From NCBI RefSeq assembly GCF_020991365.1, contig NZ_JAJLRA010000002.1, positions 186,001-250,000 on the forward strand: DNA of 64,000 bases, given 5' to 3'. Origin of the DNA: Streptacidiphilus sp. ASG 303. Its GTDB lineage: Bacteria > Actinomycetota > Actinomycetes > Streptomycetales > Streptomycetaceae. The notes beneath the pieces are model-generated. The model had not been told where the DNA came from. It worked only from the letters and a program-made list of their open reading frames with translations, and ran no database searches. Positions 5,560 through 48,116 of this stretch are shown here, piece by piece. Numbering within the stretch: position 1 is the first letter of the stretch; every line of letters begins with the position of its first letter. The position numbers and the translations under genes were made by a program.

Positions 5560-6336
5560 TCAGCCGAAGCGGACGTCCACGCTGGTGAAGCCCAGCGACT
5601 TCAGCAGGCCCTGCAGCATGGACCGGGTGTTCTGCTCGGCGCGCGCGTCGAGGTCGCTCTGCCGGGCGGCGTCCTGGATCTTCCTGGCGGCCAGGACGTT
5701 CAGCTCGTGCTCGTTGCCCGGGTTGTCGCCGAAGAAGTCGCCGAACCGGTCGAACAGCCCGCGCTCCTTGGTGAAGACGTACGACCGCTTGGGGTCGAGC
5801 GCCGCCTGGTCGAGCTGGGCGTGGGGCAGCCGGAGGACCGCGCTGCGGCGGTCGGACGAGACGGTGACGCCGTCCTTCCCGACCCGGCCCAGGTCCACGT
5901 ACGCGCCGACGCTGCCGGCGCCCACGTAGAGGGTGCGGCTGCCGCGGATCGCGCTGGGCAGGAACTTGGCGTCCTTCTCCAGGTCGACGATCACCTGGTA
6001 GTTGCCGGTCGCGGCCTGGTAGCGGCTCATGTCCTGGATGGACTTGAGCACCGCCGGGCCGCTGCGGTCCTTGGTCTCGGTGCCGAAGAGGTCGGGCAGG
6101 CCGGGCAGCCAGTCGAGCTTGAAGGCGGCCAGGAAGAGCGCCGCGATGACCGCCAGGGTGACCGGCAGGCCGACGTACCAGGGCACCCGCCGCCGCTCGC
6201 GGCGGTAGCCGCCGCCGGGGCCGTCCGGCGCCGTGCGGCCGCCGCGGTCGTGCTCCTCGACCGCGGTGCGGCTCGGCTCGTCGTCCATCCGGCCGCCACT
6301 CCTCTTCGCTTCGTGTGCCTCTCCGTGGGGCGGCAT
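5560..6336 (-). CDS. DUF4230 family membrane protein
   Basis: A 258-residue protein: about 50 charged, disordered N-terminal residues, one transmembrane helix (WYVGLPVTLAVIAALFLAAF), then a DUF4230 domain (VLKSIQDMSRYQAATGNYQVIVDLE through FTSVDVRFG). DUF4230 proteins are small anchored proteins of unknown function. ATG at 6336 is chosen because GGGAGGTG lies eight bases before it on the coding strand (6345-6352); a GTG nine codons upstream and an ATG 16 codons downstream are weaker choices. It stands alone between the repair gene and a divergently read region. Confidence 0.88.
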   Translation of the reverse strand: MPPHGEAHEAKRSGGRMDDEPSRTAVEEHDRGGRTAPDGPGGGYRRERRRVPWYVGLPVTLAVIAALFLAAFKLDWLPGLPDLFGTETKDRSGPAVLKSIQDMSRYQAATGNYQVIVDLEKDAKFLPSAIRGSRTLYVGAGSVGAYVDLGRVGKDGVTVSSDRRSAVLRLPHAQLDQAALDPKRSYVFTKERGLFDRFGDFFGDNPGNEHELNVLAARKIQDAARQSDLDARAEQNTRSMLQGLLKSLGFTSVDVRFG

Positions 6337-6769
6337 GTCGAAGACACCTCCCGTCGCCCGCACCGGGGGGCCCTTCCCCCCGTGCGCTTATGCCCCGTCC
6401 TGCGCCGGTGCATGGCGGGGCCGCGGGATCGTGACGGTCCCGGTACGGCGCCGCGGCGGGCGTGGGCGCTGCGGACGGCCGGTCCGCCCTGCGCCCTCGC
6501 CTGCCGCGCCGCACCCTACCGGCAGGGTCCGACAGTGCTGACGGCCCGTCCGCATCCCGGCGGCCCGCCCCCGGCGGGGGCGCGACGCGGAGCGACGCGA
6601 GGGGGACGCGAGGGGGACGCGAGGGGGACGCGCACCGCCTTCTCCCTGACGGGACGGTGAACTGAAACAGAATCAGCTTCACGCGAACGGCGGCACCACG
6701 GGGTGTGAGGATCCGGCCGTACGGGCAGATCGGAGGTACCGCACCGTCCGACGACCGGAGGTCCCCGCC
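6337..6769. other. Divergent intergenic region with an 11-bp tandem repeat
   Basis: This 433-bp stretch separates the DUF4230 gene from the small plus-strand membrane gene and must hold both promoters. It contains three tandem copies of GAGGGGGACGC at about 6600-6632 and a GC-rich inverted repeat near 6565-6583. The segment 6660-6690 is locally AT-rich. No convincing -35/-10 pair was identified and no further gene was seen. Confidence 0.5.
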
Positions 6770-6898
6770 ATGGTCGGCGTCGTCATCCTGGGCATCGTCA
6801 TCGTGGCCCTGGGCATCGCAAGCGTGTTCCTCACGCTCTGGAACGAGGGCGAGAAGCTGCCCGGCCGCCTGCGCCGCCGCCCGCCGCGGGCAGGGTAG
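6770..6898 (+). CDS. Small single-span membrane protein, 42 residues
   Basis: A short gene with an excellent ribosome-binding site (GGAGG at 6757-6761, eight bases before ATG). The product begins MVGVVILGIVIVALGIASVF, a single transmembrane helix, followed by LTLWNEGEKLPGRLRRRPPR, so the basic tail should be cytoplasmic. It ends 30 bases before a strong stem-loop terminator. No known family is recognised. Small membrane proteins of this kind often modulate larger membrane complexes, but no partner is evident here. Confidence 0.65.
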   Translation: MVGVVILGIVIVALGIASVFLTLWNEGEKLPGRLRRRPPRAG

Positions 6899-6927
6899 GC
6901 CCTGCCCGCGCCGGGCTCCCCGACGAG

Positions 6928-6970
6928 GCCGTGCGGTTCCCCCGGGTCCGGCCCGGGGGAACCGCACGGC
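6928..6970. terminator. Bidirectional stem-loop between convergent genes
   Basis: A perfect 19-bp inverted repeat with a 5-base loop: arms 6928-6946 and 6952-6970. It lies between the 3' ends of the small membrane gene (plus) and rsgA (minus), so it can serve both. Confidence 0.85.
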
Positions 6971-7000
6971 CCGTCCGCGGCCGCGGCGGGCGGCGTCCCG

Positions 7001-8236
7001 TCAGCGGCGGCGCGTCACCCCGGCGTCGCGCACCGACTTCTGGACGATCTTCCACTGGCGGCGGCGCTCGGCGGCGAGGCGCGCATCGCCGCGCGCCTCG
7101 ATCCAGGCGTTCTCCCGCTGGAGCTTGCGGTAGCTCTCCCAGCGCCGCACCGGCAGGGTGCCCTCCTCCAGGGCCGCCGCGACCGCACAGCCGGGCTCGG
7201 TGCGGTGGGCGCAGTCGTCGAAGCGGCACTGCGCCGCCAGCTCCTCGACGTCGGAGAACGCGTGGCCGAGGCCCTCGGCGCCCCCGAGGAGGCCGACGCC
7301 GCGCAGACCCGGCGTGTCGATCAGGACGCCGCCGCCCGGCAGCGGCAGCAGCTCGCGGGTGGTCGTGGTGTGCCGGCCCTTGCCGTCGCTGTCGCGGACG
7401 TGCCGGACGGCCATCACCTCGGCCCCGGCGAGCGCGTTGGCAAGGGTGGACTTCCCGGCGCCCGACTGGCCGACGAGCGCGGTCGTGCCGTCCAGGCAGG
7501 CCGCGAGCACGTCCATGCCCTCCCCCGTCGCGGCCGAGACGGCCAGGACGGTCGCGCCCGGCGCCACCGCCTCGACGTCGTCGCGGATGTGTCCGGCGTC
7601 GGCGGCCACATCGGCCTTGGTGAGCACCACCAGGGGCTGGGCGCCGCTCTCCCAGGCGAGGGCGAGGAAGCGCTCGACGCGGCCGAGGTCGGGCTCGGCG
7701 GCGAGGGAGACGGCGATCAGCACGGTGTCCACGTTGGCGGCGAGGACCTGCCCCTCGGAGCGGCGGGAGGCGCTGCTGCGGACGACGGCGGTGCTGCGGG
7801 GCAGCAGCGCCCGGACGGCCGGGAGCGGGACCGCCTCCGGGTCCACGGCGGCCCAGTCGCCGGTGCAGGGGCACCGGACGGGGTCCGGGTGGCCGACCGG
7901 CCCGGTGTCGGCGCGCAGGGTGCGCAGGCCGGGGAGCGGGGAGGCGGCGCCGGAGGGGCCGCCGCCGTCCGGGTGGGGTCCGGCGGTGCCCGCACCGGAG
8001 GGACGGGCGGGATCGGCGACGACCACGTCGCAGCGGCCCCGGTCGACCCGGGTGATGCGGCCGGGGACGAGGCCGGCGGCGCGGTGGGGGGCGAAGAGCT
8101 CGTCGAGCCCGGGGGTCCAGCCGTAGGCGGCCAGGGGGTCCGGCCCGGGGGCCGGGGTCGCGGGGACTGGCGGGACGGCCGGCCGCGCGGGGGTGTGCGG
8201 TGCGGAGGTCTGCTGTGTGCGGGTCGCGTCGGACAA
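7001..8236 (-). CDS. rsgA: Ribosome small-subunit-dependent GTPase A
   Basis: A 411-residue member of the circularly permuted GTPases that check 30S subunit maturation. After an OB-fold region, the GTPase motifs appear in permuted order: TKAD (G4), SAATGEG (G5), GQSGAGKSTL (G1), and DTPGLRG (G3). A zinc-finger-like segment follows (CRFDDCAHRTEPGC), typical of the C-terminal domain. The start is a TTG at 8236 with GAAGGG nine bases upstream; the N-terminus is longer and more Pro-rich than in enterobacterial RsgA. A 22-codon micro-ORF with a near-perfect ribosome-binding site sits 60 bases upstream. Confidence 0.95.
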   Translation of the reverse strand: MSDATRTQQTSAPHTPARPAVPPVPATPAPGPDPLAAYGWTPGLDELFAPHRAAGLVPGRITRVDRGRCDVVVADPARPSGAGTAGPHPDGGGPSGAASPLPGLRTLRADTGPVGHPDPVRCPCTGDWAAVDPEAVPLPAVRALLPRSTAVVRSSASRRSEGQVLAANVDTVLIAVSLAAEPDLGRVERFLALAWESGAQPLVVLTKADVAADAGHIRDDVEAVAPGATVLAVSAATGEGMDVLAACLDGTTALVGQSGAGKSTLANALAGAEVMAVRHVRDSDGKGRHTTTTRELLPLPGGGVLIDTPGLRGVGLLGGAEGLGHAFSDVEELAAQCRFDDCAHRTEPGCAVAAALEEGTLPVRRWESYRKLQRENAWIEARGDARLAAERRRQWKIVQKSVRDAGVTRRR

Positions 8237-33731: not shown

Positions 33732-35918
33732 ATGCAGGTCTGGCCGGGACACCCGTACCCCCTCGGTGCCACCTACGACGGGGCCGGAACCAACTTCGCG
33801 GTCTTCTCGGAGGCCGCCGACCGGATCGAGCTCTGCCTGATCGGCGACGACGGGTCGGAGACCGCGGTGGAGCTGCGGGAGACCGACGCCTTCGTGCGCC
33901 ACGCCTACCTGCCCGGGGTCCAGCCCGGCCAGCGGTACGGCTTCCGGGTGCACGGCCCGTACGACCCGGAGCAGGGGCACCGCTGCAACAGCGCCAAGCT
34001 GCTGCTCGACCCGTACGCGAAGGCGATGAGCGGGTCGATCGACTGGCACGAGTCCGTGTACGGGTACCACTTCGGCGCCCCGGAGCGGCGCAACGACCTG
34101 GACTCCGCCCCGCACACCATGCACTCGGTGGTGATCAACCCCTACTTCGACTGGGGCAACGACCGGCCGCCGCGCACCGACTACCACCGCACCGTGCTGT
34201 ACGAGGCCCACGTGAAGGGGCTCACCAAGCTGCACCCCGGCATCCCGGAGGAGATCCGCGGCACCTATGCGGGCATCGCCCACCCGGCCGTGGTCGAGCA
34301 CCTGGTGGACCTCGGGGTGACTGCGATCGAGCTGATGCCGGTGCACCAGTTCGTCCACGACCACCGCCTGGCGGACATGGGCCTGTCGAACTACTGGGGC
34401 TACAACACCATCGGGTTCTTCGCCCCGCACTGCTCCTACTCCTCGGTCGGGGACCGCGGGCAGCAGGTGCAGGAGTTCAAGTCGATGGTCAAGGCCCTGC
34501 ACGCGGCCGGCATCGAGGTCATCCTCGACGTGGTCTACAACCACACCGCGGAGGGCAACCACCTCGGCCCGACCCTCTCCTTCCGCGGCCTGGACAACGA
34601 CAACTACTACCGGCTGGTCGGCGACGACAAGCGGTACTACGAGGACACCACCGGCACAGGCAACTCCCTGCTGATGCGCAGCCCCCACGTGCTGCAGCTG
34701 ATCATGGACTCGCTGCGCTACTGGGTCACCGACATGCACGTCGACGGCTTCCGCTTCGACCTGGCCGCCACCCTGGCGCGGCAGTTCCACGAGGTGGACC
34801 GGCTGTCGTCCTTCTTCGACCTCGTGCAGCAGGACCCGGTGGTCTCCCAGGTCAAGCTGATCGCCGAGCCGTGGGACGTCGGCGAGGGCGGCTACCAGGT
34901 GGGCAACTTCCCGCCGCTGTGGACCGAGTGGAACGGCAAGTACCGCGACACCGTGCGCGACCTGTGGCGCGGGGAGAACGCCACGCTCGCCGAGTTCGGC
35001 TCCCGGCTGACCGGCTCCTCCGACCTCTACCAGGACGACGGCCGCCGGCCGATCGCGTCCATCAACTTCGTCACCTGCCACGACGGCTTCACCCTGCGCG
35101 ACCTGGTCTCGTACAACGAGAAGCACAACGAGGCCAACGGCGAGGACAACCGCGACGGCGAGAGCCACAACCGCTCGTGGAACTGCGGGGCCGAGGGCGA
35201 GACCGACGACGAGGGCGTGCAGGAGCTGCGCGCCCGCCAGCAGCGGAACTTCATCGCCACCCTCATGCTCTCCCAGGGCGTGCCGATGCTCTCCCACGGC
35301 GACGAGCTGGGCCGCACCCAGCAGGGCAACAACAACGCCTACTGCCAGGACAGCGAGCTGGCCTGGGTGCACTGGCCGAAGGCCGCCGCCCAGACCCCGC
35401 CCGCGAGCACCGGCGGCCTGCCGCACGGCACGGCGCAGCCGGAGGACGCGGCCGAACCGGCGGCGCAGCTGCTGGAGTTCACCCGGTCCATGGTGTGGCT
35501 GCGCCGCGACCACCCGGTCTTCCGCCGTCGGCGCTTCTTCCACGGCCGGCCCGTCTCCGGCACCCACGACGACCTCTCCGACATCGCCTGGTTCACCCCC
35601 GACGGCCGGGAGATGACCGACGACGACTGGAGCGCCTCGTACGCCAAGTCGATGACGGTCTTCCTCAACGGCTACGCCATCTCCGAGCCCGACCGGCGCG
35701 GCGGGAAGATCGTGGACGACTCCTTCCTGCTGATGTTCAACGCCCACTACGAGCCGCTGGACTTCGTGGTGCCGGTGAACCACGGCCGCGAGTGGCAGGT
35801 GGTGGTGGACACCGCCCTGCCCAGGACGATCACGCCGGGCACGGGGGCGCGGGTGAAGGCGGGAGACCGGCTGCGGCTGGCCGACCGCTCGCTGATCGTG
35901 CTCCAGCGTCCCGCCTAG
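33732..35918 (+). CDS. glgX: Glycogen debranching enzyme GlgX (isoamylase-type, TreX)
   Basis: A 728-residue GH13 isoamylase-type enzyme. An N-terminal CBM48 domain (about residues 10-110; YPLGATYDGAGTNFAVFSEAAD) precedes the barrel. Catalytic segments are visible: DVVYNHTAEGN, the nucleophile in DGFRFDLAATLA, the acid in KLIAEPWDVGEGGYQVG, and VTCHDGFTLRDLV. It hydrolyses alpha-1,6 branches of glycogen to release linear maltooligosaccharides. These are the substrate of TreY, encoded 7.6 kb further on, so the three genes make trehalose from glycogen. It ends at two consecutive strong stem-loops. Confidence 0.97.
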   Translation: MQVWPGHPYPLGATYDGAGTNFAVFSEAADRIELCLIGDDGSETAVELRETDAFVRHAYLPGVQPGQRYGFRVHGPYDPEQGHRCNSAKLLLDPYAKAMSGSIDWHESVYGYHFGAPERRNDLDSAPHTMHSVVINPYFDWGNDRPPRTDYHRTVLYEAHVKGLTKLHPGIPEEIRGTYAGIAHPAVVEHLVDLGVTAIELMPVHQFVHDHRLADMGLSNYWGYNTIGFFAPHCSYSSVGDRGQQVQEFKSMVKALHAAGIEVILDVVYNHTAEGNHLGPTLSFRGLDNDNYYRLVGDDKRYYEDTTGTGNSLLMRSPHVLQLIMDSLRYWVTDMHVDGFRFDLAATLARQFHEVDRLSSFFDLVQQDPVVSQVKLIAEPWDVGEGGYQVGNFPPLWTEWNGKYRDTVRDLWRGENATLAEFGSRLTGSSDLYQDDGRRPIASINFVTCHDGFTLRDLVSYNEKHNEANGEDNRDGESHNRSWNCGAEGETDDEGVQELRARQQRNFIATLMLSQGVPMLSHGDELGRTQQGNNNAYCQDSELAWVHWPKAAAQTPPASTGGLPHGTAQPEDAAEPAAQLLEFTRSMVWLRRDHPVFRRRRFFHGRPVSGTHDDLSDIAWFTPDGREMTDDDWSASYAKSMTVFLNGYAISEPDRRGGKIVDDSFLLMFNAHYEPLDFVVPVNHGREWQVVVDTALPRTITPGTGARVKAGDRLRLADRSLIVLQRPA

Positions 35919-35986
35919 CCCGCTCGGCCCGCGCAGCACGCTCGGCCCGCGCAGTCCGGCCGGGTCCCGTACGACGGGGCGCGGCG

Positions 35987-36035
35987 GCAGCCGTCCGCCC
36001 CTCCCGGATGCTCCCCGGGAGGGGCGGACGGCTGC
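35987..36035 (+). terminator. First strong terminator after glgX
   Basis: A perfect 21-bp inverted repeat (35987-36007 with 36015-36035) around a 7-base loop. Confidence 0.9.
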
Positions 36036-36040
36036 GTCAC

Positions 36041-36088
36041 GGCCGCCGGTGACGGGCGGCCTCGCACGGCCGCCCGTCACCGGCGGCC
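36041..36088. terminator. Second strong terminator, back to back with the first
   Basis: Another perfect 21-bp inverted repeat (36041-36061 with 36068-36088) and a 6-base loop, five bases beyond the first. Its arms share no sequence with the first one. Confidence 0.9.
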
Positions 36089-36099
36089 GCACGAGGGGT

Positions 36100-36132
36100 G
36101 CCCCGCCGGGAACGGCGCGCCCCCGGCGGGGC
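36100..36132 (-). terminator. Third stem-loop, downstream of the lipoprotein gene
   Basis: Perfect 11-bp arms (GCCCCGCCGGG at 36100-36110, complement at 36122-36132), 14 bases after the stop of the minus-strand lipoprotein gene. Confidence 0.75.
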
Positions 36133-36146
36133 GGAGGGCGGCCGGC

Positions 36147-36974
36147 TCAGCGGAAGGACGGGTGGATCTCGGCGGCCTTGTCGTCGCAGATCGCGAAGAC
36201 CTGCGCGGGCGGCAGCAGGGCGAAGTCGGTCGCCCGGACCAGGCCGCGCGAGTACTTGGCCCGCACCACCTTGGTCTGGGACAGGCCGCCGTACACGTCC
36301 CTGACCGCGCCCTGCACGGTCAGCACCACCGAGCCGTAGGCGAACGACGAGTCCCGCACCACGCCCAGCACGGCCAGGGCGTCGCGCCGGGCACGGTCCC
36401 GGGCCCCCCGGTCGGCGAGTGCGGAGCTGACCGTCCAGGTGACCGACAGCTGGTTGCCGCCGTGCGCGCTGAACGCCGTCCTCAGGTGGGCCGGCGGGTG
36501 GCCGCCGCGCTCCACGGCGGCGGAGAGCCGGGCGGTGAGGCGCACCAGCGCGGCGTCGGTCGCCGCCCGGGCGGACCCGGCGCCGCCGCCGGGCGCCGAC
36601 GGCCGGCCGCCCCCGCCCGGCGTCGCGGTCGCGGCCGGGTCGTAGACGCCGGACGCGGCGGCGGTGGGCAGCTGGTCGCCGGGCACGGCGGTCTGCGGAC
36701 CGACCTTGGCGGGGTCGGCGCCGTACCGCTGGGCGGGTCCGCTCGCGCAGCCCGCGGCGGCCAGGACCGGCAGCAGGACCGCGGCGACCGACCCGGCGGC
36801 CAGCGCCCGCCGACGTCCGGGGGTCCGCCCCGGGCCGGCGGCGGACGCCGCGGGCAGGGCGGACGCCGCGGGCGGGGCGGACGCCGCGCGGACCGCGGCC
36901 TCCGGGCGGGGGCCGGCCGCGGGAGCCGGGCCCGCCTCCCGCCCGCGCCCCCGGCGGGGGCCGGGGCCCGTCAC
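36147..36974 (-). CDS. Hypothetical lipoprotein of the beta-helix/GT2 locus
   Basis: A 275-residue protein starting GTG inside the ugd stop codon (GTGA), so coupled to it. A Pro/Ala/Arg-rich stretch of about 45 residues precedes a signal peptide with lipobox LAAAGC (VAAVLLPVLAAAGCASG), so the mature protein should be anchored outside the membrane. The mature part has a disordered linker and then a conserved-looking domain (DALVRLTARLSAAVERGG through LLPPAQVFAICDDKAAEIHP). I do not recognise a family. As the last gene of the operon it may help export, anchor or stabilise the polymer. Confidence 0.75.
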   Translation of the reverse strand: MTGPGPRRGRGREAGPAPAAGPRPEAAVRAASAPPAASALPAASAAGPGRTPGRRRALAAGSVAAVLLPVLAAAGCASGPAQRYGADPAKVGPQTAVPGDQLPTAAASGVYDPAATATPGGGGRPSAPGGGAGSARAATDAALVRLTARLSAAVERGGHPPAHLRTAFSAHGGNQLSVTWTVSSALADRGARDRARRDALAVLGVVRDSSFAYGSVVLTVQGAVRDVYGGLSQTKVVRAKYSRGLVRATDFALLPPAQVFAICDDKAAEIHPSFR

Positions 36975-38314
36975 GGACGTCCGAGCGCCCGGTACTCCCA
37001 CCCGGCGGCGCGCCACCGGGCGGGGTCCAGGGCGTGCCGTCCGTCGACGATGCGGCGCCCGGCGACCACCGCGCCCATCGCCTCGGGGTCGATCTCGCGG
37101 AACTCGGTCCACTCGGTGAGCAGCGCCACCACGTCCGCCCCGGCGGCGACGTCCAGCGCGCTCTCCCCGTAGACGAGCTGCGGGTAGGAGCGCCGGGCGT
37201 TGTCCATGCCCGCCGGGTCGAAGACGCGGACCTCGGCGCCGGCCCGCTGGAGTGCGGCGGCCACGTCGAGGGCGGGGGCGTCGCGGATGTCGTCGGAGTT
37301 CGGCTTGAAGGTGGCGCCGAGGGCGGCGATCCGCACCCCGTCCAGCGAGCCGCCGGCCAGCTCCCGGACCAGGTCCACGGTGCGGGCGCGGCGGCGCTGG
37401 TTGATGGCGTCGACCTCGCGGAGGAAGGCCACCGCCTGGCCGACGCCGAGCTCCTCCGCCCGGTGCTTGAACGCCCGGATGTCCTTGGGCAGGCAGCCGC
37501 CGCCGAAGCCGAGGCCCGGCTTGAGGAACCGGCCGCCGATGCGGTCGTCGTAGGCCAGCGCCTCGGCGAGGCGGGTGACGTCCGCGCCGGTGGCCTCGCA
37601 GACCTCGGCCATGGCGTTGATGTAGGAGATCTTGGTGGCCAGGAAGGAGTTGGCGGCGACCTTGACCAGTTCGGCGGTGGGCAGGTCGGTGACCACCACC
37701 GGCGAGCCCTGCGCGATGACGGGCGCGAAGGCGGCGCGCAGCCGCTGCTCGGCCCAGTCGGAGGCCACGCCGAAGACGAGCCGGTCGGGCCGCATGGTGT
37801 CGTCGACGGCGAAGCCCTCGCGGAGGAACTCGGGGTTCCAGGCGAGCTCGACCTCCTCCCGGGCGGGGGCGACGGCCTGCACGAGCGCGGTGAGGCGGGC
37901 GGCGGTGCCCACGGGCACGGTGGACTTGCCGACGATGAGGGAGCGCCGGTCCAGGTGGGCGGCGAGCGCCCGGACGGCGCCGTCGACGTAGCTGAGGTCG
38001 GCGGCCTGGGAGCCCTTCTGCTGCGGGGTGCCGACGCAGACGAAGTGCACGTCGCCGAAGGCGGCGGCCTCCTCGAAGGAGGTGGTGAAGGAGAGCCGGC
38101 CGGACTCCAGCGCCTTGGCGAGGAGTTCGGGCAGGCCGGGTTCGAAGAAGGGCACCTCGCCGGAGGCCAGCCGCTCGATCTTGCGCTCGTCCACGTCGAC
38201 GCCGAGCACCTCGAAGCCGAGGACGGCCATGCAGACGGCGTGGGTGGCACCGAGGTAGCCGGTGCCGATCACGGTGAGGCGGGGCGGTCTGTGCGGGTCG
38301 CTGTGCAGGTCCAT
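36971..38314 (-). CDS. ugd: UDP-glucose 6-dehydrogenase (nucleotide-sugar dehydrogenase)
   Basis: A 447-residue NAD-dependent enzyme that oxidises UDP-glucose to UDP-glucuronate. Rossmann motif VIGTGYLGATHAVCMA at about residues 15-30, GKSTVPVGTA, NPEFLREG, and the catalytic cysteine C274 in GFGGGCLPKD are all present. It is placed between a beta-helix gene (11 bases upstream) and the lipoprotein gene. The product would supply a uronic-acid precursor for the GT2 synthase of the same operon. A GDP-mannose or UDP-ManNAc dehydrogenase role cannot be ruled out from sequence alone. Confidence 0.92.
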   Translation of the reverse strand: MDLHSDPHRPPRLTVIGTGYLGATHAVCMAVLGFEVLGVDVDERKIERLASGEVPFFEPGLPELLAKALESGRLSFTTSFEEAAAFGDVHFVCVGTPQQKGSQAADLSYVDGAVRALAAHLDRRSLIVGKSTVPVGTAARLTALVQAVAPAREEVELAWNPEFLREGFAVDDTMRPDRLVFGVASDWAEQRLRAAFAPVIAQGSPVVVTDLPTAELVKVAANSFLATKISYINAMAEVCEATGADVTRLAEALAYDDRIGGRFLKPGLGFGGGCLPKDIRAFKHRAEELGVGQAVAFLREVDAINQRRRARTVDLVRELAGGSLDGVRIAALGATFKPNSDDIRDAPALDVAAALQRAGAEVRVFDPAGMDNARRSYPQLVYGESALDVAAGADVVALLTEWTEFREIDPEAMGAVVAGRRIVDGRHALDPARWRAAGWEYRALGRP

Positions 38315-38325
38315 GGAGTCCCCCT

Positions 38326-39540
38326 CTAGGAGCAGGTGCCGTTGGTGAGGCCCTTGGCGGCGGCGGTCGCCTTGTTGCTGCAGGCCACGGTGTTGCTGTC
38401 CGGCGACTGGACGTTGAAGCCGTAGCCCGGCCCGTCGACCTGGGCGGTGTTGTCCTTGAAGACGTTGCCCTTGCCCCAGCCGTCGACGACCTGGTGCGTC
38501 TGGAAGCCGTCGGCGAGGCTGTGGGTGCCGGTGTTGCCCTGGATCAGCCAGTCGTTGCCCTTGACGTCGACCCAGGAGTCGTTGTGGCTGCCCTTGAGCT
38601 TCGAGCCGTCGAAGGTGTTGTCCTCGAGGACGCCGTGCGAGGTGCCCTCCTTGATGTCGACGGACTCGGCGGTGGTGCCGCTGATGTGGTTGCCGCGGAC
38701 GGTGTTGCGGTCGCTGTTGTCGGGCCTGCCGCCGCTGACGGTGGGCCAGTTGCTGACCGCGCTGCCGATGTAGATCCCCTCGCCGAACTTGTCGCGGCGC
38801 AGCCCGGTGTCGCTGACGGTGTTGCCCTCCACCGTGTTGTCGCTGGAGAAGTTGCGCAGGTGGATGGCCTCGTCACCGATCTGCGTGACCGTCAGGCCCT
38901 TGATGAGGGTGTGCTGGACCTTGTCCGCCATCACGCCCTTCTGGCTGTTGCGGACGGTGAAGCCGATCACCCGCCACCAGCTGGCCCCGTCGAGGTGGAG
39001 GGCGTAGCCCTTCTTGACGCCGCCGCCGTCGATGACCGCGCCGGGTCCGCCGCACAGCACGATCGGCTGCTGCTCGGTGCCGGGCGTCTTCGCGGTGAAC
39101 TTGCCGGTGTAGGTGCCGTCGGCGATCTGGATGACGTCGCCGGGCTTGGCGTCGGTGAGCGCCCGCTGGAGGCCGTCGGCGTCCTGCACGGTGGTGGTGG
39201 CGACGGGGCACGCGTCCGAGCCCGGGGCGGGCGGCGCGGACGCGCCGTCGGAGGCGGACGGCGCGTCGGAGGGCTCCCCGGTGCCGGGCGCCGGGGAGGC
39301 CGGGGCGTCCGACGGGGTGCCGGTGGAGAGGGTGGGGCCGACCTGCCCGGTGGCACCGGCGCCCGCGACCCGCTGCCCGCCGCCGTCGCCGCCGCCGGAC
39401 AGGGCGACGACCAGGGCGACGAGGGCGATCAGGAAGGCACCGCCGGCCAGCCAGACCGCGGGGCCGCGCATCCACTCCGGGCGGCCGCCGCCCGGCGGGG
39501 GCGTGGGCGGGCTGGTCGGCATGGGCGGTGTCTCGGACAT
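38326..39540 (-). CDS. Membrane-anchored right-handed parallel beta-helix protein, lyase/epimerase-like
   Basis: A 404-residue protein. A short Pro-rich cytoplasmic start is followed by one transmembrane helix (GPAVWLAGGAFLIALVALVVAL, about residues 29-50), a Ser/Pro/Asp linker, and a parallel beta-helix from about residue 110 to the end. The helix opens like polysaccharide lyases (LQRALTDAKPGDVIQIADGTYTG) and has SVDIKEGTSHGVLEDNTFDG and NDSWVDVKGNDWLIQGNTG coils, which resemble pectate- and chondroitin/alginate-lyase-type helices. It could cut or epimerise the polymer made by the GT2 enzyme. Start ATG at 39540 has GAGGA upstream. Confidence 0.8.
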   Translation of the reverse strand: MSETPPMPTSPPTPPPGGGRPEWMRGPAVWLAGGAFLIALVALVVALSGGGDGGGQRVAGAGATGQVGPTLSTGTPSDAPASPAPGTGEPSDAPSASDGASAPPAPGSDACPVATTTVQDADGLQRALTDAKPGDVIQIADGTYTGKFTAKTPGTEQQPIVLCGGPGAVIDGGGVKKGYALHLDGASWWRVIGFTVRNSQKGVMADKVQHTLIKGLTVTQIGDEAIHLRNFSSDNTVEGNTVSDTGLRRDKFGEGIYIGSAVSNWPTVSGGRPDNSDRNTVRGNHISGTTAESVDIKEGTSHGVLEDNTFDGSKLKGSHNDSWVDVKGNDWLIQGNTGTHSLADGFQTHQVVDGWGKGNVFKDNTAQVDGPGYGFNVQSPDSNTVACSNKATAAAKGLTNGTCS

Positions 39541-39664
39541 CGGGATCCTCGGTGGGTGCGGTTCGGGACGGACGGGGCGGAGCTGCCGGACGGGACGGGC
39601 CGGCCGGTGCGGGATCCTCTCACGGGCGGATCCCGCGCCGGACCGGGCCGGGGCGCCGCGGAGG

Positions 39665-39682
39665 CGGCCGTGCACACGGCCG
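39665..39682. repeat. Inverted repeat between the two beta-helix genes
   Basis: CGGCCGTG-CA-CACGGCCG lies in the 225-bp gap between the two beta-helix genes. The gap also carries GC-rich partly complementary segments near 39720-39765. It may act as an intra-operon terminator or be incidental. Confidence 0.45.
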
Positions 39683-39765
39683 GGACCGGTGCGGGCCGGC
39701 GGGATGCCCGGCCCGGTGCGCCGGTCCCGCGGGCGGACCGGCCGGGGCCGGCCCGCCGGCCGGGC

Positions 39766-41691
39766 TCAGTGCGCCGGGGCGGGCCCGGTCTCGCCGCCGG
39801 ACGTCCGGCGGTCGCCGCGGCGCAGCGCCCAGGACCGGCCGCCCAGCGGGCGCTTGTCGGTGTACGGGTGCGCGCCGAGGACCCGCTGTCCGCGCTTCCG
39901 TCCCCGCAGCGCGGCGAACAGGATGAGCAGCAGGATCGCGGTCCACAGCATCGTCATGGGGCTCATGTAGTGCCGGAACCGGACCCAGAAGGAGCTGGTG
40001 TCGTGCCAGGCGAAGGTCTGGTTCTCCTTCACCGTGGCCCCGCCGTGGGAGCGGGAGGTGTCGATGGCGCTGGGTCCGACGCCGGCGACCACGTTGTAGC
40101 TGACCAGCGAGCCGGCGGTGTCCCCGACGAGGCTGACGCCGTGGTTGCCGGCGCCCTGCACGGTGTTGCCGCGGACCTCGGCCCGCGAGTCGCGGACGTA
40201 GATCGCGGTGTCGCTGTCCTCGACCACGTTGCCGGTGACGGTGGCGTCCCGGACGGCGTCGCGGACCGCGATGCCCTGCCGCCGCTGCCCGGTGACCTGG
40301 TTGCCCGTGATGGAGACCTTCTCGACCCGCTGGCGGGCGACGATGCCCATGTCGCTGCCCTCGACGCGGTTGTTCTGCACGCCGATGTCGGTGCCGCCGA
40401 CGACCTCGATGCCGTAGTGGCCGTTGTTGCGGGCCACGCTGTTGGAGACCGAGTTGGAGCCGTACTTGTCGACGGACTCGCCCGAGGCGGACGGTCCCTC
40501 GGCGAGGGGCTGGCCGCTGAGGGTGAAGCCGTTGCCCCCGTTGTCGGCCGCGGTGGAGCCGCTGATGCGGACCTCCTCGGTGGCGCGGGCGAGGACGAAG
40601 CCGTCGCCGCCGTTGTGCCGGGAGGTGGTGCGCTCGACGACGGTGCTGGAGGCGAAGCGGTGCAGCACCAGGCCGTGCTCCAGGCTGTCCTCGATGGTGG
40701 AGTCGCTGACGGAGACGCCGTTGGCGCTGGAGATGAAGAGGCCGAAGGCGTTGCCGCGCAGCGTGGAGTGGGCGACCTTGGCGGAGACGTAGCTCTGGCC
40801 CGGCACCGAGAAGCGGGCGTCGGGGGTGCCGAGGGGGCCGGCGGGGCTGGCCTGCACGTCGCCGCTGCTGAGCGGGGTGCCCGAGCTGGCCGGACCGCCT
40901 CCGGAGAGCCGGTCGGCCTTGGCCTGGTGGCGCTCGTCCTTGGTCACGTGCTGCGAGGTCTCGACGTTGCCCGTGTTGGGGCGGTCGGTGCCGGTGAGGC
41001 TGAGGCCGCCGGTGCGGCCGGACCAGAAGCCCAGGCCGGTGATGTCCGCGTACTCCATGTCGAAGGTGCCGCCGATGGCGCGGATGTAGGCGCGGCCGTC
41101 GGCCACCTCGGTGTCGGACCGGCCGGTCCGCGGGTCCCAGCTGGTGATCTGCGCCGGGGCCTGGGGGGTGCCGGCGATGGTGAGGGTGCCGCCGAAGGAG
41201 ACGATGGAGACGAAGCCGCGGTCGTTGCTGGCGAGGCGCAGCTTGAGTCCGCCGGGGTTGGAGAGCTTCAGCTTGGCGCCGGAGTTGAGGTAGAGGTTCT
41301 CCGTCAGCAGGTAGGAGCCGTCCCGCTGCCGGGTGAACGTCTGCGGGGCGAGGGTGAGCAGGTCCGCGACGGTGTAGGGGGCGCTGCGCTGGGTGAGGAC
41401 CAGGGTGTAGCCGCCGCCGGTGTCCAGCCGGTAGGGCCTGGTCCAGGTCCGGCCGCGCAGGGGGGCGACGGCGGCCACCGAGCGGACCTCGATGAGCCGG
41501 CGGTCCTCCTCCGCGACGAGGGCGGCCTCCCGCTCGGCCGTCTGCGGCGAGGTCGTGGAGGGCCTCGCCGTGTCGGCGGCGGCCGGGGTCGCGGCGGCGA
41601 CCGGCAGCAGGGCGGCGCCGGCGAGGGCGGCGAGCAGGGTCGCGGGGACCGCGCGGCGCGATGACGCGCCGCGCACGGGGGTGCGGGTCAC
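39766..41691 (-). CDS. Exported right-handed parallel beta-helix protein with C-terminal membrane anchor
   Basis: A 641-residue protein. A signal peptide (TLLAALAGAALLPVAAATPAAADT, cleavage about residue 41) leads into an N-terminal domain with RSAPYTVADLLTLAPQTF and a beta-helix that spans about residues 130-570. The helix coils are typical PbH1 repeats (SVSDSTIEDSLEHGLVLHRF, NNGHYGIEVVGGTDIGVQNN, VTGNVVEDSDTAIYVRDSRA). It closes with a transmembrane helix (MTMLWTAILLLILFAALRG) and a basic tail. The GTG start is inside the GT2 stop codon (GTGA), so the two are translationally coupled. Such NosD/AlgG-like helices act on periplasmic polysaccharide. Confidence 0.85.
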   Translation of the reverse strand: MTRTPVRGASSRRAVPATLLAALAGAALLPVAAATPAAADTARPSTTSPQTAEREAALVAEEDRRLIEVRSVAAVAPLRGRTWTRPYRLDTGGGYTLVLTQRSAPYTVADLLTLAPQTFTRQRDGSYLLTENLYLNSGAKLKLSNPGGLKLRLASNDRGFVSIVSFGGTLTIAGTPQAPAQITSWDPRTGRSDTEVADGRAYIRAIGGTFDMEYADITGLGFWSGRTGGLSLTGTDRPNTGNVETSQHVTKDERHQAKADRLSGGGPASSGTPLSSGDVQASPAGPLGTPDARFSVPGQSYVSAKVAHSTLRGNAFGLFISSANGVSVSDSTIEDSLEHGLVLHRFASSTVVERTTSRHNGGDGFVLARATEEVRISGSTAADNGGNGFTLSGQPLAEGPSASGESVDKYGSNSVSNSVARNNGHYGIEVVGGTDIGVQNNRVEGSDMGIVARQRVEKVSITGNQVTGQRRQGIAVRDAVRDATVTGNVVEDSDTAIYVRDSRAEVRGNTVQGAGNHGVSLVGDTAGSLVSYNVVAGVGPSAIDTSRSHGGATVKENQTFAWHDTSSFWVRFRHYMSPMTMLWTAILLLILFAALRGRKRGQRVLGAHPYTDKRPLGGRSWALRRGDRRTSGGETGPAPAH

Positions 41692-43127
41692 GCTCCGATG
41701 ACCTCTTCCTGGTGAACGGGGGTGTCGTGGACCGGGGTGCCGTGGGCCGGGGTGCCGTGGCCGGTGCCGCCGGCGGTGCGCTGGTGCGGCAGGGCGGCGT
41801 CCTGGCGGGGGGCGCCGGGCGCCTCGGCGGCCGGGGCGGCCTCGGCCAGCAGGTCGAGGGAGACGCCGGACGGCGGGGCGAGGGTGGCGGCGGTCTGCCC
41901 CTCGCCGCCGATCCGGTCGGCGCTGCGGGTGAGCCAGCCCTGCTTGTTCATGGTGACGAAGGCGTACAGCTTGACGGGCAGCGAGATCATGATGACGACC
42001 ACGGCCAGCAGCGGCAGGATCAGCAGGTCCTTCGGGTGCCGCCGCAGGTGCGAGTAGCCGCGCACGCCGCGGCCCAGCAGCAGCCAGACGAGGACCATGG
42101 CCGCGCTGCGCGGGGTCATCTCCAGGCGGCTGAGCAGCAGGTAGCCGACGGCCATGCCCATGGTGACGGGGGTGAGCAGGATCTGCAGCACCGTCACCTT
42201 GGTGACGAGCGGGGTCCGCCACAGCCAGCCCTTGGCGACGGCGGTGAGGTAGCAGCGGTAGGAGTTGCGGCTCCAGCGGACCCGCTGCTTGACGAAGGCC
42301 CGGAAGGAGTCCGGGAACATCGACACCGCGCGGGCGGAGGACTGGTGGACGGTCCGGTAGCCCTGGGCGAGGACCAGCCAGGTGAGCCGGCCGTCGTCGC
42401 CGGCGACGCAGCGGCGGCCGAGGAAGAACTCGTTCTCCAGGTTCTCCACGACCGGGAGGATCGCGGAGCGGCGGTAGGCGGCGGTGCGGCCGGAGAGGCA
42501 GGCGACGCCGCCGTACTTGCCCATGGCGGGCACGTAGTCGTAGTAGCGCAGGTTGACCAGCCAGTCGGCGATGCGGCGCCAGACGCTGGTCTCGCGCTGG
42601 TACACGTTCTGCTGGGTGCCCACGCCGCCCACGCCGGGGTCGGCGAAGGGCATCTGGACGGCGGCGAGCAGTCCGGGCGTCCAGCGGGTGTCGGAGTCGG
42701 CGAAGACGACGATCTCGCCGACGGCGGCGCGGATGCCGACGCCGAGGGCGGAGCGCTTCCCCGCGTGCTCGAAGACGATCACCCGGAGCCGGGGGTCCGC
42801 CACCTCGGCGAGCCGGCGCTGGACCTCGGTGTCGGCCACGTCGGGCACGACGATGACCTCGGTGGGGTCCTGCTCCAGCCAGGTGGCCAGACACTCCATG
42901 AGGATGTCCGGGTCCTCCCGGTAGGACGGCACGACCACCGAGGTGGTCGTGCGGAAGTCGTTGACCACGGGCTTGTTGAAGCGCGACACGACGGCGCGCA
43001 CCAGCCACAGGGCCCAGACGAAGACGCCGGCGACGCCGAGCGGCATCACGTCGCGCCAGGAGGTCTCGGCGGTCGCCTGCACGACCCAGGACCAGACGCT
43101 GTCGGCGATTTCCGAAACGGAAGACAC
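41688..43127 (-). CDS. Processive family 2 glycosyltransferase, hyaluronan/cellulose-synthase-like
   Basis: A 479-residue membrane glycosyltransferase. Helix 1 is at about residues 29-48. The GT-A domain has VVVPSYRED, D144-S-D146, the catalytic GDD (243-245) and Q281-R-V-R-W285, the QxxRW motif of processive synthases. Four or more C-terminal helices (about 305-400) would form the export channel. The QNVYQRET, GVACLSGRTAAYRR and AGDDGRLTWLVL blocks look more like hyaluronan synthases than Alg8. The last 80 residues are disordered with TPAH/TPVH repeats. GTG at 43127 has GGGAGGGT just upstream. With ugd next door, the likely product is a uronate-containing polysaccharide. Confidence 0.88.
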   Translation of the reverse strand: MSSVSEIADSVWSWVVQATAETSWRDVMPLGVAGVFVWALWLVRAVVSRFNKPVVNDFRTTTSVVVPSYREDPDILMECLATWLEQDPTEVIVVPDVADTEVQRRLAEVADPRLRVIVFEHAGKRSALGVGIRAAVGEIVVFADSDTRWTPGLLAAVQMPFADPGVGGVGTQQNVYQRETSVWRRIADWLVNLRYYDYVPAMGKYGGVACLSGRTAAYRRSAILPVVENLENEFFLGRRCVAGDDGRLTWLVLAQGYRTVHQSSARAVSMFPDSFRAFVKQRVRWSRNSYRCYLTAVAKGWLWRTPLVTKVTVLQILLTPVTMGMAVGYLLLSRLEMTPRSAAMVLVWLLLGRGVRGYSHLRRHPKDLLILPLLAVVVIMISLPVKLYAFVTMNKQGWLTRSADRIGGEGQTAATLAPPSGVSLDLLAEAAPAAEAPGAPRQDAALPHQRTAGGTGHGTPAHGTPVHDTPVHQEEVIGA

Positions 43128-43281
43128 GCACCCTCCCCGCACACCGCGCGCCGTACGGCGCGCAGCCACCCCTCGCACTTCGGCCACATGTGCGGCCGGG
43201 GGACACACTAGCGACAAATTTTGGCCGCAGAACCGTCAGAAGTCCTCGGTAACTAGGGTTTCACCAGGTCGTCATACGAGC

Positions 43282-43300
43282 GGATGAATCGGATTCGTCC
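43282..43300. promoter_or_regulatory. Operator-like palindrome upstream of the GT2 operon and treY
   Basis: GGATGAATCGGATTCGTCC: core GAATC-G-GATTC is perfect, the outer bases nearly so. It lies about 155 bases from the GT2 start. A second, GC-rich inverted repeat ACCCCCG/CGGGGGT follows at about 43302-43322. Confidence 0.5.
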
Positions 43301-43394
43301 ACCCCCGTCGATCGGCGGGGGTCATGACAACGATGACGCGGCCGCCTCAGGACGTCCGCCCGCCGAGCGCCGGCAGCTGCCGGCACTGCCGGCC

Positions 43395-43457
43395 CGGACG
43401 GCGGACGGCGGACGGCGGACGGCGGACGGCGGACGGCGGACGGCGGACGGCGGACGG
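43395..43457. repeat. Nine perfect copies of a heptanucleotide upstream of treY
   Basis: CGGACGG repeated nine times without a mismatch (63 bp), ending 60 bases before the treY start. Because the unit is seven bases, changes in copy number would shift promoter spacing, and shift the reading frame of anything translated through it. Confidence 0.92.
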
Positions 43458-43517
43458 ATTCGCCCTCACGCCCGCGCCCGGATGTGCACCGCGCCTCCAC
43501 CGGGTAGGCATGGGCAC

Positions 43518-46109
43518 ATGACAGCCGCCGCACCCGACCGCACCGGGCCGACCGCCGACCGTCCCCGGCCGACCGCCACCTACCGGCTCCAGCTGCAGCC
43601 CGGTTTCACCCTCCACGACGCGGCGGCGGCCGTCCCCCACCTCGCCGCCCTCGGCGTCTCCCACCTGCACCTCTCCCCGCTGCTGGAGGCGGCACCGGGC
43701 TCCGCCCACGGCTACGACACCGTCGACCACACCCGGATCAGCGAGCAGCTCGGCGGCGAGCCCGCCCTGCGCACCCTCGCGGAGCGCGCCCGCGCCCACG
43801 GCCTGCGGCTGGTCGCCGACACCGTGCCCAACCACATGGCGCTCCCCGTCCCCGAGCACCTGAACCACCCGCTGTGGCACGTCCTGCGTGAGGGGCCCGA
43901 CTCCCCGTACGCCCGCTGGTTCGACATCGACTGGACCGCCCAGACCGGCCCCGCCGACGCCCCCCACCGCGGCCGGGTGCTGCTGCCGCTCCTCGGTGAC
44001 CGCCTCGGCGCCGTCCTGGACCAGCTCTCCCCCGGCAAGGCCGCCGTGCGGCACCCCGAGACCGGCGACGCGCCCGCCGAGCCCGTCCTGCGCTACCACG
44101 ACCACGTCCTGCCGCTGCGGCCCGGCACCGAGCACCTGCCGCTGCCCGAGCTGCTCGACCACCAGTGGTACCGGCTCGCGTGGTGGCGGCTGGCCCGCAC
44201 CGACCTCAACTACCGCCGGTTCTTCACCGTCAACGACCTCATCGCGGTCCGCGCCGAGGACCCCGAGGTCTTCCGCGCCACCCACGGCGTGCTGCTGCGG
44301 CTGTACGAGGAAGGGGTGCTCGACGGCTTCCGCATCGACCACCCGGACGGCCTCGCCGACCCCCGCGGCTACCTGCGCCGGCTCGCGGAGGCCACCGGCG
44401 GCGCCTGGACGGTCGTGGAGAAGATCCTCACCGGCGACGAGCGGCTGCCCGAGGACTGGCCCTGCGCCGGCACCACCGGCTACGACGCGCTGCTGCACGT
44501 CGACGGGGTGCTCACCGACCCCGACGGCGTGCGGCGGATCGCCGAGGACGCCGCCGGCCTGCTCACCCCCTCCCCCGGCGCGCCCCCGGCCGACGCCGCC
44601 GACCCGTCCGCCGTCTACCGGCGGGCCGCCGCCGACGCCCGGCGCGAGGTCGTCCGCCGCGAGCTGGCCGCGGAGATCGCACGCCTGGGCCGCACCGCCG
44701 CCCGTGCCTGCGACGAGACCCCCGACGCCGGGGTCGCCGCCCACCGCGACCACCCCGACTGGGCGCTGACCGAGGCCGCCGCCCAGCTCGTCGCGGCCCA
44801 CCCCGTCTACCGGCCCTACGTCGTGCCCGGCGAGCCCGCGCCCGGCGAGGCCGCCCGGGAGCTGACCGCGCTCGCCGACGCCGCCCCCGCGCCCGGCGCG
44901 CCGCTCACCGTCCCGGCCGAGCCCGTGCCCGCCCCCTCCGACGCCGAGCAGCTCGCCGCCGCGCTGGAGACCGTCCGGGACCTCGCCCTGGGCCGGCTCG
45001 GGCGCGGCCCGGCCCGCGACGAGTTCGCCGCCCGCTTCGCCCAGACCTGCTCCGCAGCGGCGGCCAAGGGCCTGGAGGACAAGGCGTTCTACCGCTGGTA
45101 CCCGCTGCTGTCGGTCAACGAGGTCGGCGGCGACCCCGGCCATCCGGGCACCGCGCCCGACCGGTTCCACGCCTGGTGCGCGCACGTCCGGCGGCACTGG
45201 CCCGCCGGGCTCACCGCGCTCTCCACCCACGACACCAAGCGCAGCGCCGACGCCCGGGCCCGGCTCGCCGTGCTCGCCGAGACGCCCGGCACCTGGGCCG
45301 CCGCCCACCGCGCCTGGTCGCGGGCGGCCGCCCGGCACCGCACCGGCCCGCACCCGGGGCCCGCCGCCGAGTACCTCCTGTGGCAGACCCTCGCCGCCGC
45401 CTGGCCGATCGACGGCGACCGGCTGGTCGGGGCGCTGCTGAAGTCCGTCCGCGAGGCCGACCTGCAGACCTCCTGGACCGAGCCCGACCCCGGCTTCGAG
45501 GAGGCCCTGGAGCGGTACGCCCGCGCGGTGCTGGACGACCCCGAGGTCACCGGTCCCGTCGCGGCGTTCGTCGAGGCCCACGCCCCGTACGCGCGCAGCA
45601 ACACCCTCGCCGCGGCGCTGCTGCACCTCACCGTCCCCGGCGTCCCCGACCTGTACCAGGGCAGCGAGGAGCCGCTGTACACCCTGGTCGACCCCGACAA
45701 CCGCCGCCCCGTCGACCTCGCCGCCATGGGCCGCCGTCTGGCCGCCCTCGACGCCGGGGCGGCCCCGGACGGCCTCGCGGCCGAGAAGCTGCGCCTCACC
45801 GCCGCGGCGCTGCGGCTGCGCCGCGACCGGCCCGGCTCCTTCGCGGGCGGGTACACGCCGCTCGCCGCCCGCGGCACCGCGGCGGAGCACCTGCTGGCCC
45901 ACGTGCGCGGCGACGACGTGCTGGCCGCCGCCACCCGCCTGCCGTACGGGCTGGAGCGGGACGGGGGCTGGGCGGACACCTCGCTGGAGCTGCCCGGCTG
46001 CCCCGCCGGACGCTGGACCGACCTGCTCACCGGCCGCACCTTCGCCCCCGGCGTGCTGCCGGTCGCCGAGCTGCTGGAGCACCTGCCGGTGGCGCTGCTG
46101 GCCGGCTGA
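43518..46109 (+). CDS. treY: Malto-oligosyltrehalose synthase
   Basis: An 863-residue GH13 enzyme that turns the reducing-end alpha-1,4 bond of maltooligosaccharides into the alpha-1,1 bond of trehalose. Segments typical of TreY: TYRLQLQPGFTLHDAAAAVP near the start, GSAHGYDTVDHTRISEQLGG, the nucleophile region DGFRIDHPDGLADPRGYL, VVEKILTGDERLP, LEDKAFYRWYPLLSVNEVGG and LSTHDTKRSADARARL. ATG at 43518 is chosen as the start just before the conserved N-terminus; no strong ribosome-binding site is visible. TreZ follows 177 bases downstream. Confidence 0.96.
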   Translation: MTAAAPDRTGPTADRPRPTATYRLQLQPGFTLHDAAAAVPHLAALGVSHLHLSPLLEAAPGSAHGYDTVDHTRISEQLGGEPALRTLAERARAHGLRLVADTVPNHMALPVPEHLNHPLWHVLREGPDSPYARWFDIDWTAQTGPADAPHRGRVLLPLLGDRLGAVLDQLSPGKAAVRHPETGDAPAEPVLRYHDHVLPLRPGTEHLPLPELLDHQWYRLAWWRLARTDLNYRRFFTVNDLIAVRAEDPEVFRATHGVLLRLYEEGVLDGFRIDHPDGLADPRGYLRRLAEATGGAWTVVEKILTGDERLPEDWPCAGTTGYDALLHVDGVLTDPDGVRRIAEDAAGLLTPSPGAPPADAADPSAVYRRAAADARREVVRRELAAEIARLGRTAARACDETPDAGVAAHRDHPDWALTEAAAQLVAAHPVYRPYVVPGEPAPGEAARELTALADAAPAPGAPLTVPAEPVPAPSDAEQLAAALETVRDLALGRLGRGPARDEFAARFAQTCSAAAAKGLEDKAFYRWYPLLSVNEVGGDPGHPGTAPDRFHAWCAHVRRHWPAGLTALSTHDTKRSADARARLAVLAETPGTWAAAHRAWSRAAARHRTGPHPGPAAEYLLWQTLAAAWPIDGDRLVGALLKSVREADLQTSWTEPDPGFEEALERYARAVLDDPEVTGPVAAFVEAHAPYARSNTLAAALLHLTVPGVPDLYQGSEEPLYTLVDPDNRRPVDLAAMGRRLAALDAGAAPDGLAAEKLRLTAAALRLRRDRPGSFAGGYTPLAARGTAAEHLLAHVRGDDVLAAATRLPYGLERDGGWADTSLELPGCPAGRWTDLLTGRTFAPGVLPVAELLEHLPVALLAG

Positions 46110-46201
46110 ACCCACCCGTCCGGCGCCGCGGGGGCATGCCCGGCGGCGCCGGGCGGGTACGCCTGTCCGTGGGCCCGGCCCGTCCGCCCGGACCGCCCGG
46201 A

Positions 46202-46221
46202 CCGCCCGTACGTACGGGCGG
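46202..46221. repeat. Perfect 20-bp palindrome between treY and treZ
   Basis: CCGCCCGTAC joined to its exact complement. It is preceded by short CGGACCGCC repeats. It could be a processing or attenuation hairpin between the two trehalose genes, or a protein-binding site 65 bases before treZ. Confidence 0.6.
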
Positions 46222-46286
46222 ACGGACGGTGCAGGACGCCGGCCGGGCCCCGCGCCGATCCGCCCGACGCATCCGAGGAGTCCCGC

Positions 46287-48116
<1,830 letters not shown>

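Follow-up and report, generated by a model that had tools for sequence, protein, structure and literature searches.

In Pseudomonas, the alg operon carries Alg8, AlgG, AlgL and AlgD, thus holding together a membrane synthase, an extracytoplasmic AlgG-fold protein, a uronate lyase and a nucleotide-sugar dehydrogenase. The hyaluronan system pairs the synthase HasA with the UDP-glucose dehydrogenase HasB. Here we describe a locus that shares features with both. It lies at 36147-43127 in a 64,000-nucleotide stretch of DNA from Streptacidiphilus sp. ASG 303 (the window; source genome ~7.0 Mb, 200 contigs), and encodes a family 2 glycosyltransferase (GT2), two beta-helix proteins (BH1 and BH2), a UDP-glucose dehydrogenase (UGD) and a lipoprotein-like protein. 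We propose, with a probability of about 0.62, that GT2-BH1-BH2-UGD is a synthase-dependent exopolysaccharide operon for a chain rich in glucuronic acid (GlcA), with export and trimming.

The operon has the component classes of the alginate operon. It differs in that the dehydrogenase is of the UDP-glucose, not the GDP-mannose, type, the synthase resembles NodC and hyaluronan synthase (HAS), the lyase belongs to polysaccharide lyase family 31 (PL31), the AlgG-fold protein lacks the DPHD motif, both beta-helix proteins have membrane anchors, and the host is an actinomycete. With HasA/HasB it shares a processive HAS-like GT2 and a UDP-glucose dehydrogenase in one operon, to which an AlgG-fold protein and a PL31 lyase are added here. 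A third likeness is by polymer, not by genes: the rhizobial glucuronan of Sinorhizobium and Peteryoungia rosettiformans is the beta-1,4-GlcA chain proposed below, one of its producers makes a glucuronan lyase, and its biosynthesis genes were stated in 2023 to be still unidentified (PMC10180729, available text). The available portions of a survey of synthase-dependent operons treat cellulose, poly-N-acetylglucosamine, alginate and Pel and do not mention the GT2-BH1-BH2-UGD operon (PMC7112194, PMC7112168). Nor was a description apparent in the titles and abstract openings among the literature matches listed, a coverage from which preprints and subscription journals are mostly absent; PMC12691653 and PMC13118837, which had looked like possible matches, concern other gene clusters as far as their available text goes. 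The individual parts are known, and what is new is their combination in one operon.

A four-gene unit patchily present among actinomycetes

The five genes, all on the minus strand and all intact as open reading frames, are as follows.

41688..43127, minus strand: GT2, NodC/HAS-like membrane glycosyltransferase of family 2, predicted to act as a processive polysaccharide synthase, 479 aa
39766..41691, minus strand: BH1, AlgG-fold protein, an extracytoplasmic right-handed beta-helix anchored by a C-terminal transmembrane segment, possible C5-epimerase or polymer-handling scaffold, 641 aa
38326..39540, minus strand: BH2, polysaccharide lyase of family PL31 (predicted activity), extracytoplasmic and anchored at its N-terminus, 404 aa
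36971..38314, minus strand: UGD, nucleotide-sugar dehydrogenase of the UDP-glucose 6-dehydrogenase type, 447 aa
36147..36974, minus strand: lipoprotein-like open reading frame, lineage-specific, 275 aa

The two GTGA overlaps described in an earlier note on this DNA are located at the GT2/BH1 and UGD/lipoprotein junctions. Because BH1 and BH2 are separated by ~225 nt, a single transcript for the operon is presumptive.

Relatives were collected by scanning named genomes with GT2 alone, which gave 79 loci with nearly all titles from actinomycetes, in many genera. Since the loci were picked by GT2 only, the neighbouring genes are an independent result. After omission of 17 loci with <8.5 kb downstream, 62 were testable for synteny: BH1 and BH2 homologues lie downstream of GT2 in 62/62, and the full order GT2-BH1-BH2-UGD is kept in 55. 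This order, together with family E-values down to 8e-125, confirms that the operon is genuine and not a chance arrangement. The earlier note had described a unit of five genes. Co-occurrence in relatives holds for the first four; a counterpart of the lipoprotein was found in 0/79 loci at E<=1e-6, which rules it out as a core component.

Spacing within the operon varies. At the GT2-BH1 junction (n=77, with start codons chosen by script), a 4-nt overlap occurs in 20 loci and a distance of <=100 nt in 61. BH1 and BH2 are >1.5 kb apart in 19 loci, mostly from Actinomadura and kin; in the wide-gap loci that were laid out (e.g. L027, L033, L034, L036, L045), the intervening gene belongs to the BH1 cluster, which comprises 75 open reading frames across 56 loci. 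Eight loci have a gap between BH2 and UGD, and in both that were read, L029 and L043, a second BH2-like gene fills it. An actinomycete-type operon was also seen on contigs labelled Vibrio cholerae 35D (L057) and Stenotrophomonas maltophilia P13 (L065), where contamination or mislabelling is probable; L057 was retained among the 62 loci and L065, with too little flank, was excluded.

The operon is real and patchily distributed. Of 158 genomes of the class, 14 have GT2. Seven of these, and no others, have BH1 (E<=1e-40), in each case adjoining GT2. Five of the seven GT2-positive genomes lacking BH1 at 1e-40 were inspected (G019, G058, G102, G111 and G113; G074 and G144 were left out), and these contain a BH1 homologue (~28%) in three cases, BH2 (45-50%) in four and UGD (62-69%) in three; no BH1 was called in G058, and G102 has a distant GT2 only. 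At family level, 7/200 genomes are positive, the window's own included, and the six others have GT2 + BH1 in 6/6, BH2 in 5/6 and UGD in 4/6 nearby. Conservation across the genus, which the earlier note had proposed as a check, was not seen: one of three genus genomes is positive, namely the window's own, and it is the wider relatives that keep the order of four genes, not five. Beyond the operon, eight gene clusters are common to 9 to 20 loci. A single representative was annotated from each: these are an OmpA-like protein, Spo0M, an acyl-CoA dehydrogenase, two components of oxo-acid dehydrogenases, an SMR and an MFS transporter, and one without a match.

For residue conservation, alignments were made from usable loci plus the window sequence in each case (BH2, 54/67 loci; BH1, 48/71; GT2, 44/73).

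An anchored PL31 lyase and a UDP-glucose-type dehydrogenase

Sequence, modelled fold and active site all place the anchored BH2 among the PL31 polysaccharide lyases, and its activity is predicted. The BH2 family profile (55 sequences) matches the PDB entry 6kfn, PsAly of Paenibacillus sp. FPU-7, at E 1.4e-67, with the next entry at 3.7e-05; PsAly is a PL31 member (PMC8618178, available text) and the sole one in this search. The predicted model of BH2, with a predicted local distance difference test score (pLDDT) of 93-99 in the helix domain, matches 6kfn by Foldseek at E 3.5e-20, with a template modelling score (TM-score) of 0.89 on the target and a root-mean-square deviation (rmsd) of 1.8, followed by PL6 lyases near 1e-06 with TM-scores <0.4. 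In PsAly, the accessible text of PMC6796002 names Tyr184/Lys221 as catalytic, Glu181/Glu216/Asp219 as ligands of the first cation, and Lys128/His154/Arg156/Asp250/Lys252 as conserved. The BH2 equivalents, Y257/K297, E254/E292/D295 and K201/H227/R229/D325/K327, were assigned from the profile alignment with the numbering offset (+34) counted by hand, and are invariant in 55/55 sequences (window + 54 loci). At the second cation site of PsAly (Tyr244/Asp246/Gln276; same source, same portion), Asp246 corresponds to D321, likewise invariant in 55/55, and Gln276 to Q347, present in at least 90%. Thus, BH2 shares with PsAly the fold, the catalytic Tyr and Lys, the acids of the first cation site and the Lys/His/Arg/Asp of the cleft; it differs in being anchored and in lying within a predicted synthesis operon.

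BH2 has a single transmembrane-like segment, at the N-terminus (residues 29-47), so that the lyase domain would face the outside of the cell. No second copy was found in the window genome at E<=1e-5. Against the chondroitinase B profile PF14592, BH2 stays under the Pfam gathering score (22 vs 24 bits). A NosD-type copper function, raised by Pfam matches, was dropped in favour of PL31.

UGD scores 416.8 bits against TIGR03026 (cut-off 189.8) and stays under the equivalog cut-off of TuaD (377.9 vs 700). Its best PDB match is the UDP-glucose dehydrogenase 4a7p at E 5e-105, as compared with E 1e-55 for the GDP-mannose dehydrogenase 1mfz. The dehydrogenase therefore groups with the uronate-forming class that the earlier note had assumed, and the catalytic Cys noted there is Cys274, in a GGGC motif conserved in relatives. 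UGD would thus provide UDP-GlcA. Alginate proper is ruled out as the product, the dehydrogenase not being of the GDP-mannose type. A second UGD, 68% identical, is encoded elsewhere in the window genome, consistent with the operon having a dedicated copy.

Synthase, AlgG-fold protein and the likely polymer

The GT2 motifs D144-S-D146, G243-D-D and Q281-R-V-R-W285 are present, as previously described, and are conserved in relatives. The DxD, GDD and QxxRW motifs are shared with NodC and chitin synthases and hence are not HAS-specific. GT2 matches PF13641 (E 3e-29), and in the PDB it matches hyaluronan synthases (E 1e-19 with the single sequence, 4e-25 with the profile). The earlier description of GT2 as HAS-like is half borne out. 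Cellulose synthase is more distant from it than NodC and the hyaluronan synthases are; among named profiles, however, the highest score is for NodC, a chitooligosaccharide synthase, at 151.7 bits under an equivalog cut-off of 550. In a tree, the GT2 family forms a clade apart from four NodC sequences and one HAS1 fragment, the HAS1 branch being very long and those of L083 and L084 long. The tail of GT2 (window 41688-41870) is rich in His, Pro and Thr, with repeated HGTP-like units, and is poorly conserved in relatives.

BH1 carries a signal-like segment at its N-terminus (14-32) and a transmembrane-like one at its C-terminus (577-595); with the N-terminal segment of BH2, this bears out the view that the two beta-helix proteins are anchored at opposite ends. 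By its model (mean pLDDT 83), BH1 has the AlgG fold. Thus, structure comparison by VIA-align puts AlgG on top (Z 36.5, rmsd 2.5 A over 351 residues), ahead of AlgE (32.2), NosD (29.6) and phage tailspikes (28.6), and the top Foldseek match is again AlgG (E 2.6e-10, TM-score 0.64 on the target). Aligned by hhalign with three AlgG-like proteins that are encoded on plasmids of Rhizobium, BH1 gives a probability of 97.7%, with E 2.4e-12 over 352 columns. Those plasmid proteins (L085:2501-2851, L086:2501-2854, L087:2501-2851) are long, with a C-terminal AlgG-like domain containing DPHDR, and are a possible lead to rhizobial polyuronate synthesis.

AlgG-type C5 epimerases have the signature DPHD, and use a catalytic His with an Arg that neutralises the carboxylate. 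Of the epimerase assignment for which the earlier note had proposed a search, the fold was recovered and the motif was not: DPHD is found in 0/49 BH1 sequences (window + 48 loci). We therefore treat epimerase activity, suggested by the modelled fold, as a hypothesis. A competing view, which has a substantial chance of being right and is compatible with the operon as proposed, is that BH1 is a non-enzymatic scaffold for the emerging chain and BH2 the sole catalyst. The missing DPHD speaks for it, as does the sequence-profile search, where NosD, a non-enzymatic beta-helix, ranks first (E 2.4e-07) and AlgG behind (1.8e-05). The case against a NosD-type function is accordingly less clear-cut for BH1 than for BH2, with NosD leading by sequence profile and AlgG by structure. 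Against a scaffold, H344, R345 and R369 are invariant in 49/49; in the divergent L091, the His is kept, whereas Q stands in place of R345 and G in place of R369, which is again in favour of a scaffold. An ungapped scan of residues 302-349 sets H344 on His319 of AlgG (score 15.4 vs -9.3 for the next register), arguing for an active site, although a scan over 302-394 prefers a register one coil away (9.2 vs -15.1), as does hhalign.

The following scheme is proposed for the operon. UGD would oxidise UDP-glucose to UDP-glucuronate, which GT2 would polymerise on the cytoplasmic side of the membrane while exporting the chain. Outside the cell, anchored BH1 would bind the chain and perhaps C5-epimerise it, and anchored BH2 would cut it by beta-elimination, thereby clearing stalled chains or setting their length. 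The gene content, synteny, PL31 membership, AlgG fold and UGD class behind this scheme were established computationally, whereas donor use, linkage, polymer identity, translocation and catalysis by BH1 are inferred.

As to the polymer, a lyase of the PL31 kind requires a 4-linked uronate, and EC 4.2.2.14 is glucuronan lyase. The alginate lyase families listed in PMC8618178 (available text) include PL31, PL14 and PL7, and the PL14 enzyme vAL-1 is entered there as EC 4.2.2.14. Reports available in part give polymannuronate as a substrate of PL31 enzymes and, at second hand, beta-1,4-glucuronan as well; a GH5+PL31 enzyme is cited with glucuronan and alginate lyase activity (PMC13235733, available part). 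Because UGD points to GlcA, and PL31 and PL14 enzymes are reported to act on glucuronan or alginate, we prefer with moderate confidence a contiguous glucuronan-type chain to an alternating one. The most likely polymer would then be 1,4-linked and GlcA-rich, of the glucuronan type, an assignment we make tentatively and at slightly under even odds; the chain is possibly C5-epimerised. Of the product envisaged in the earlier note, a uronate exopolysaccharide is supported by the UGD class, the NodC/HAS-like GT2, the PL31 assignment of BH2 and the AlgG fold of BH1. A glycosaminoglycan-like product is less favoured, because the lyase families encountered, PL31, PL14 and, beside a distant relative, PL7, are ones that cleave alginate or glucuronan.

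Several observations weigh against the GlcA-rich chain and its proposed export. First, the hydropathy scan of GT2 gives three transmembrane-like segments only, fewer than HAS has, and self-translocation by GT2 is therefore uncertain. Second, UGD is not downstream in 7/62 loci, being upstream in two of these, and among the six other positive genomes of the family, one is without a nearby UGD and another without nearby BH2 and UGD. Third, NodC and HAS use UDP-N-acetylglucosamine and, by analogy, as the nearest characterised synthases they would suit an alternating polymer. Fourth, the aligned BH2 consensus offers no equivalent of Tyr244 from the second cation site of PsAly, and PsAly itself is active on alginate and inactive on pectin, heparin, xanthan and gellan, with glucuronan and hyaluronan absent from its listed substrates (PMC6796002, in the part available).

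The third point leads to an alternative that we consider unlikely, yet worth stating, in which a HAS-like GT2 of dual specificity alternates GlcA with glucose or an amino sugar, giving a polymer like hyaluronan, heparosan or the pneumococcal type 3 chain, and the PL31 enzyme has adapted to cleave beside isolated GlcA residues. Hyaluronan synthases as best PDB matches, NodC as best named profile and the presence of UGD within the operon would all fit; the lyases found at these loci, PL31, PL14 and (near the distant relative) PL7, act on contiguous uronates and argue against it. Very improbable is a degradative operon for external alginate or oxidised cellulose with GT2 and UGD as chance neighbours: although PsAly breaks down alginate (PMC6796002, available text) and a Streptomyces PL31 enzyme is tied to cellouronate use (PMC8371330), GT2, the AlgG-fold protein and PL31 occur together in 62/62 loci, both beta-helix proteins carry membrane anchors, and no uronate catabolism gene is among the representatives of the eight shared clusters.

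If the glucuronan-type assignment is true, the operon is a candidate for the glucuronan synthesis genes, and its conserved combination of synthase, UDP-glucose dehydrogenase and PL31 lyase makes the matter directly testable by genetics. PL31 enzymes of the BH2 type, one of which has been read as degradative in Streptomyces (PMC8371330), would be recast as parts of a synthesis machine, and a uronate polymer would join the known surface glycans of actinomycetes, with a candidate epimerase supplied. A bolder version, which we regard as doubtful, is that this is the first recognisable beta-1,4-glucuronan biosynthetic locus, with BH1 as a GlcA C5-epimerase and, as product, an iduronate-containing counterpart of alginate made from UDP-GlcA. 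In that event, the alg scheme of synthase, epimerase, lyase and dehydrogenase would have been assembled anew, with a synthase of the HAS-like kind and a lyase of family PL31.

Divergent loci, lipoprotein and genomic setting

Three divergent loci, L088-L090, keep GT2 and BH2 homologues, have UGD divergently placed and then encode a PL14-type lipoprotein (PF21294; L088 at E 4.7e-25, L090 at E 3.5e-32, and L089 72% like L088). L092 holds a distant GT2 relative with a PL7-type lyase ~3.6 kb away on the opposite strand and, beyond it, a gene 31% like UGD; this PL7 association is a weak link. In L091, a second, larger GT2-like protein (5687-8041, recognised by eye) is encoded directly upstream of the operon GT2. 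A Curtobacterium plasmid operon (L083:7004-11575) is a sister arrangement that places GT2 (33%) in the same row of genes as UGD (56%), the latter a member of the UDP-glucose/GDP-mannose dehydrogenase family; in contrast to the present operon, a GH26-like protein, a hydrolase, replaces the AlgG-fold protein and the lyase.

In the window's lipoprotein, the lipobox Cys is residue 76, and because of this unusually long lead the start codon is uncertain. The protein has no Pfam match at E<=0.1 and one NCBIfam match, below cut-off. A search with composition correction off gave many matches, the best at E 2.6e-11; among the 40 listed, they lie in scattered places and none extends past residue 215 of 275. 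A rough screen for a lipobox open reading frame right after UGD was positive in 2/62 loci, and no similarity to the window lipoprotein was found in L019 (the one screened locus compared) or in the PL14 lipoproteins.

The operon is embedded in a trehalose/glycogen cluster (33732-48116), with glgX/treX (33732-35918, plus strand) on one side and treY (~43518 to 46109, plus strand), then treZ, on the other. The flanking DNA of the relatives' loci contains a tre gene at E<=1e-30 in 0/79, and the trehalose-cluster setting is therefore local to the window. Between the operon and treY, at 43400-43455, eight GGCGGAC units stand head-to-tail.

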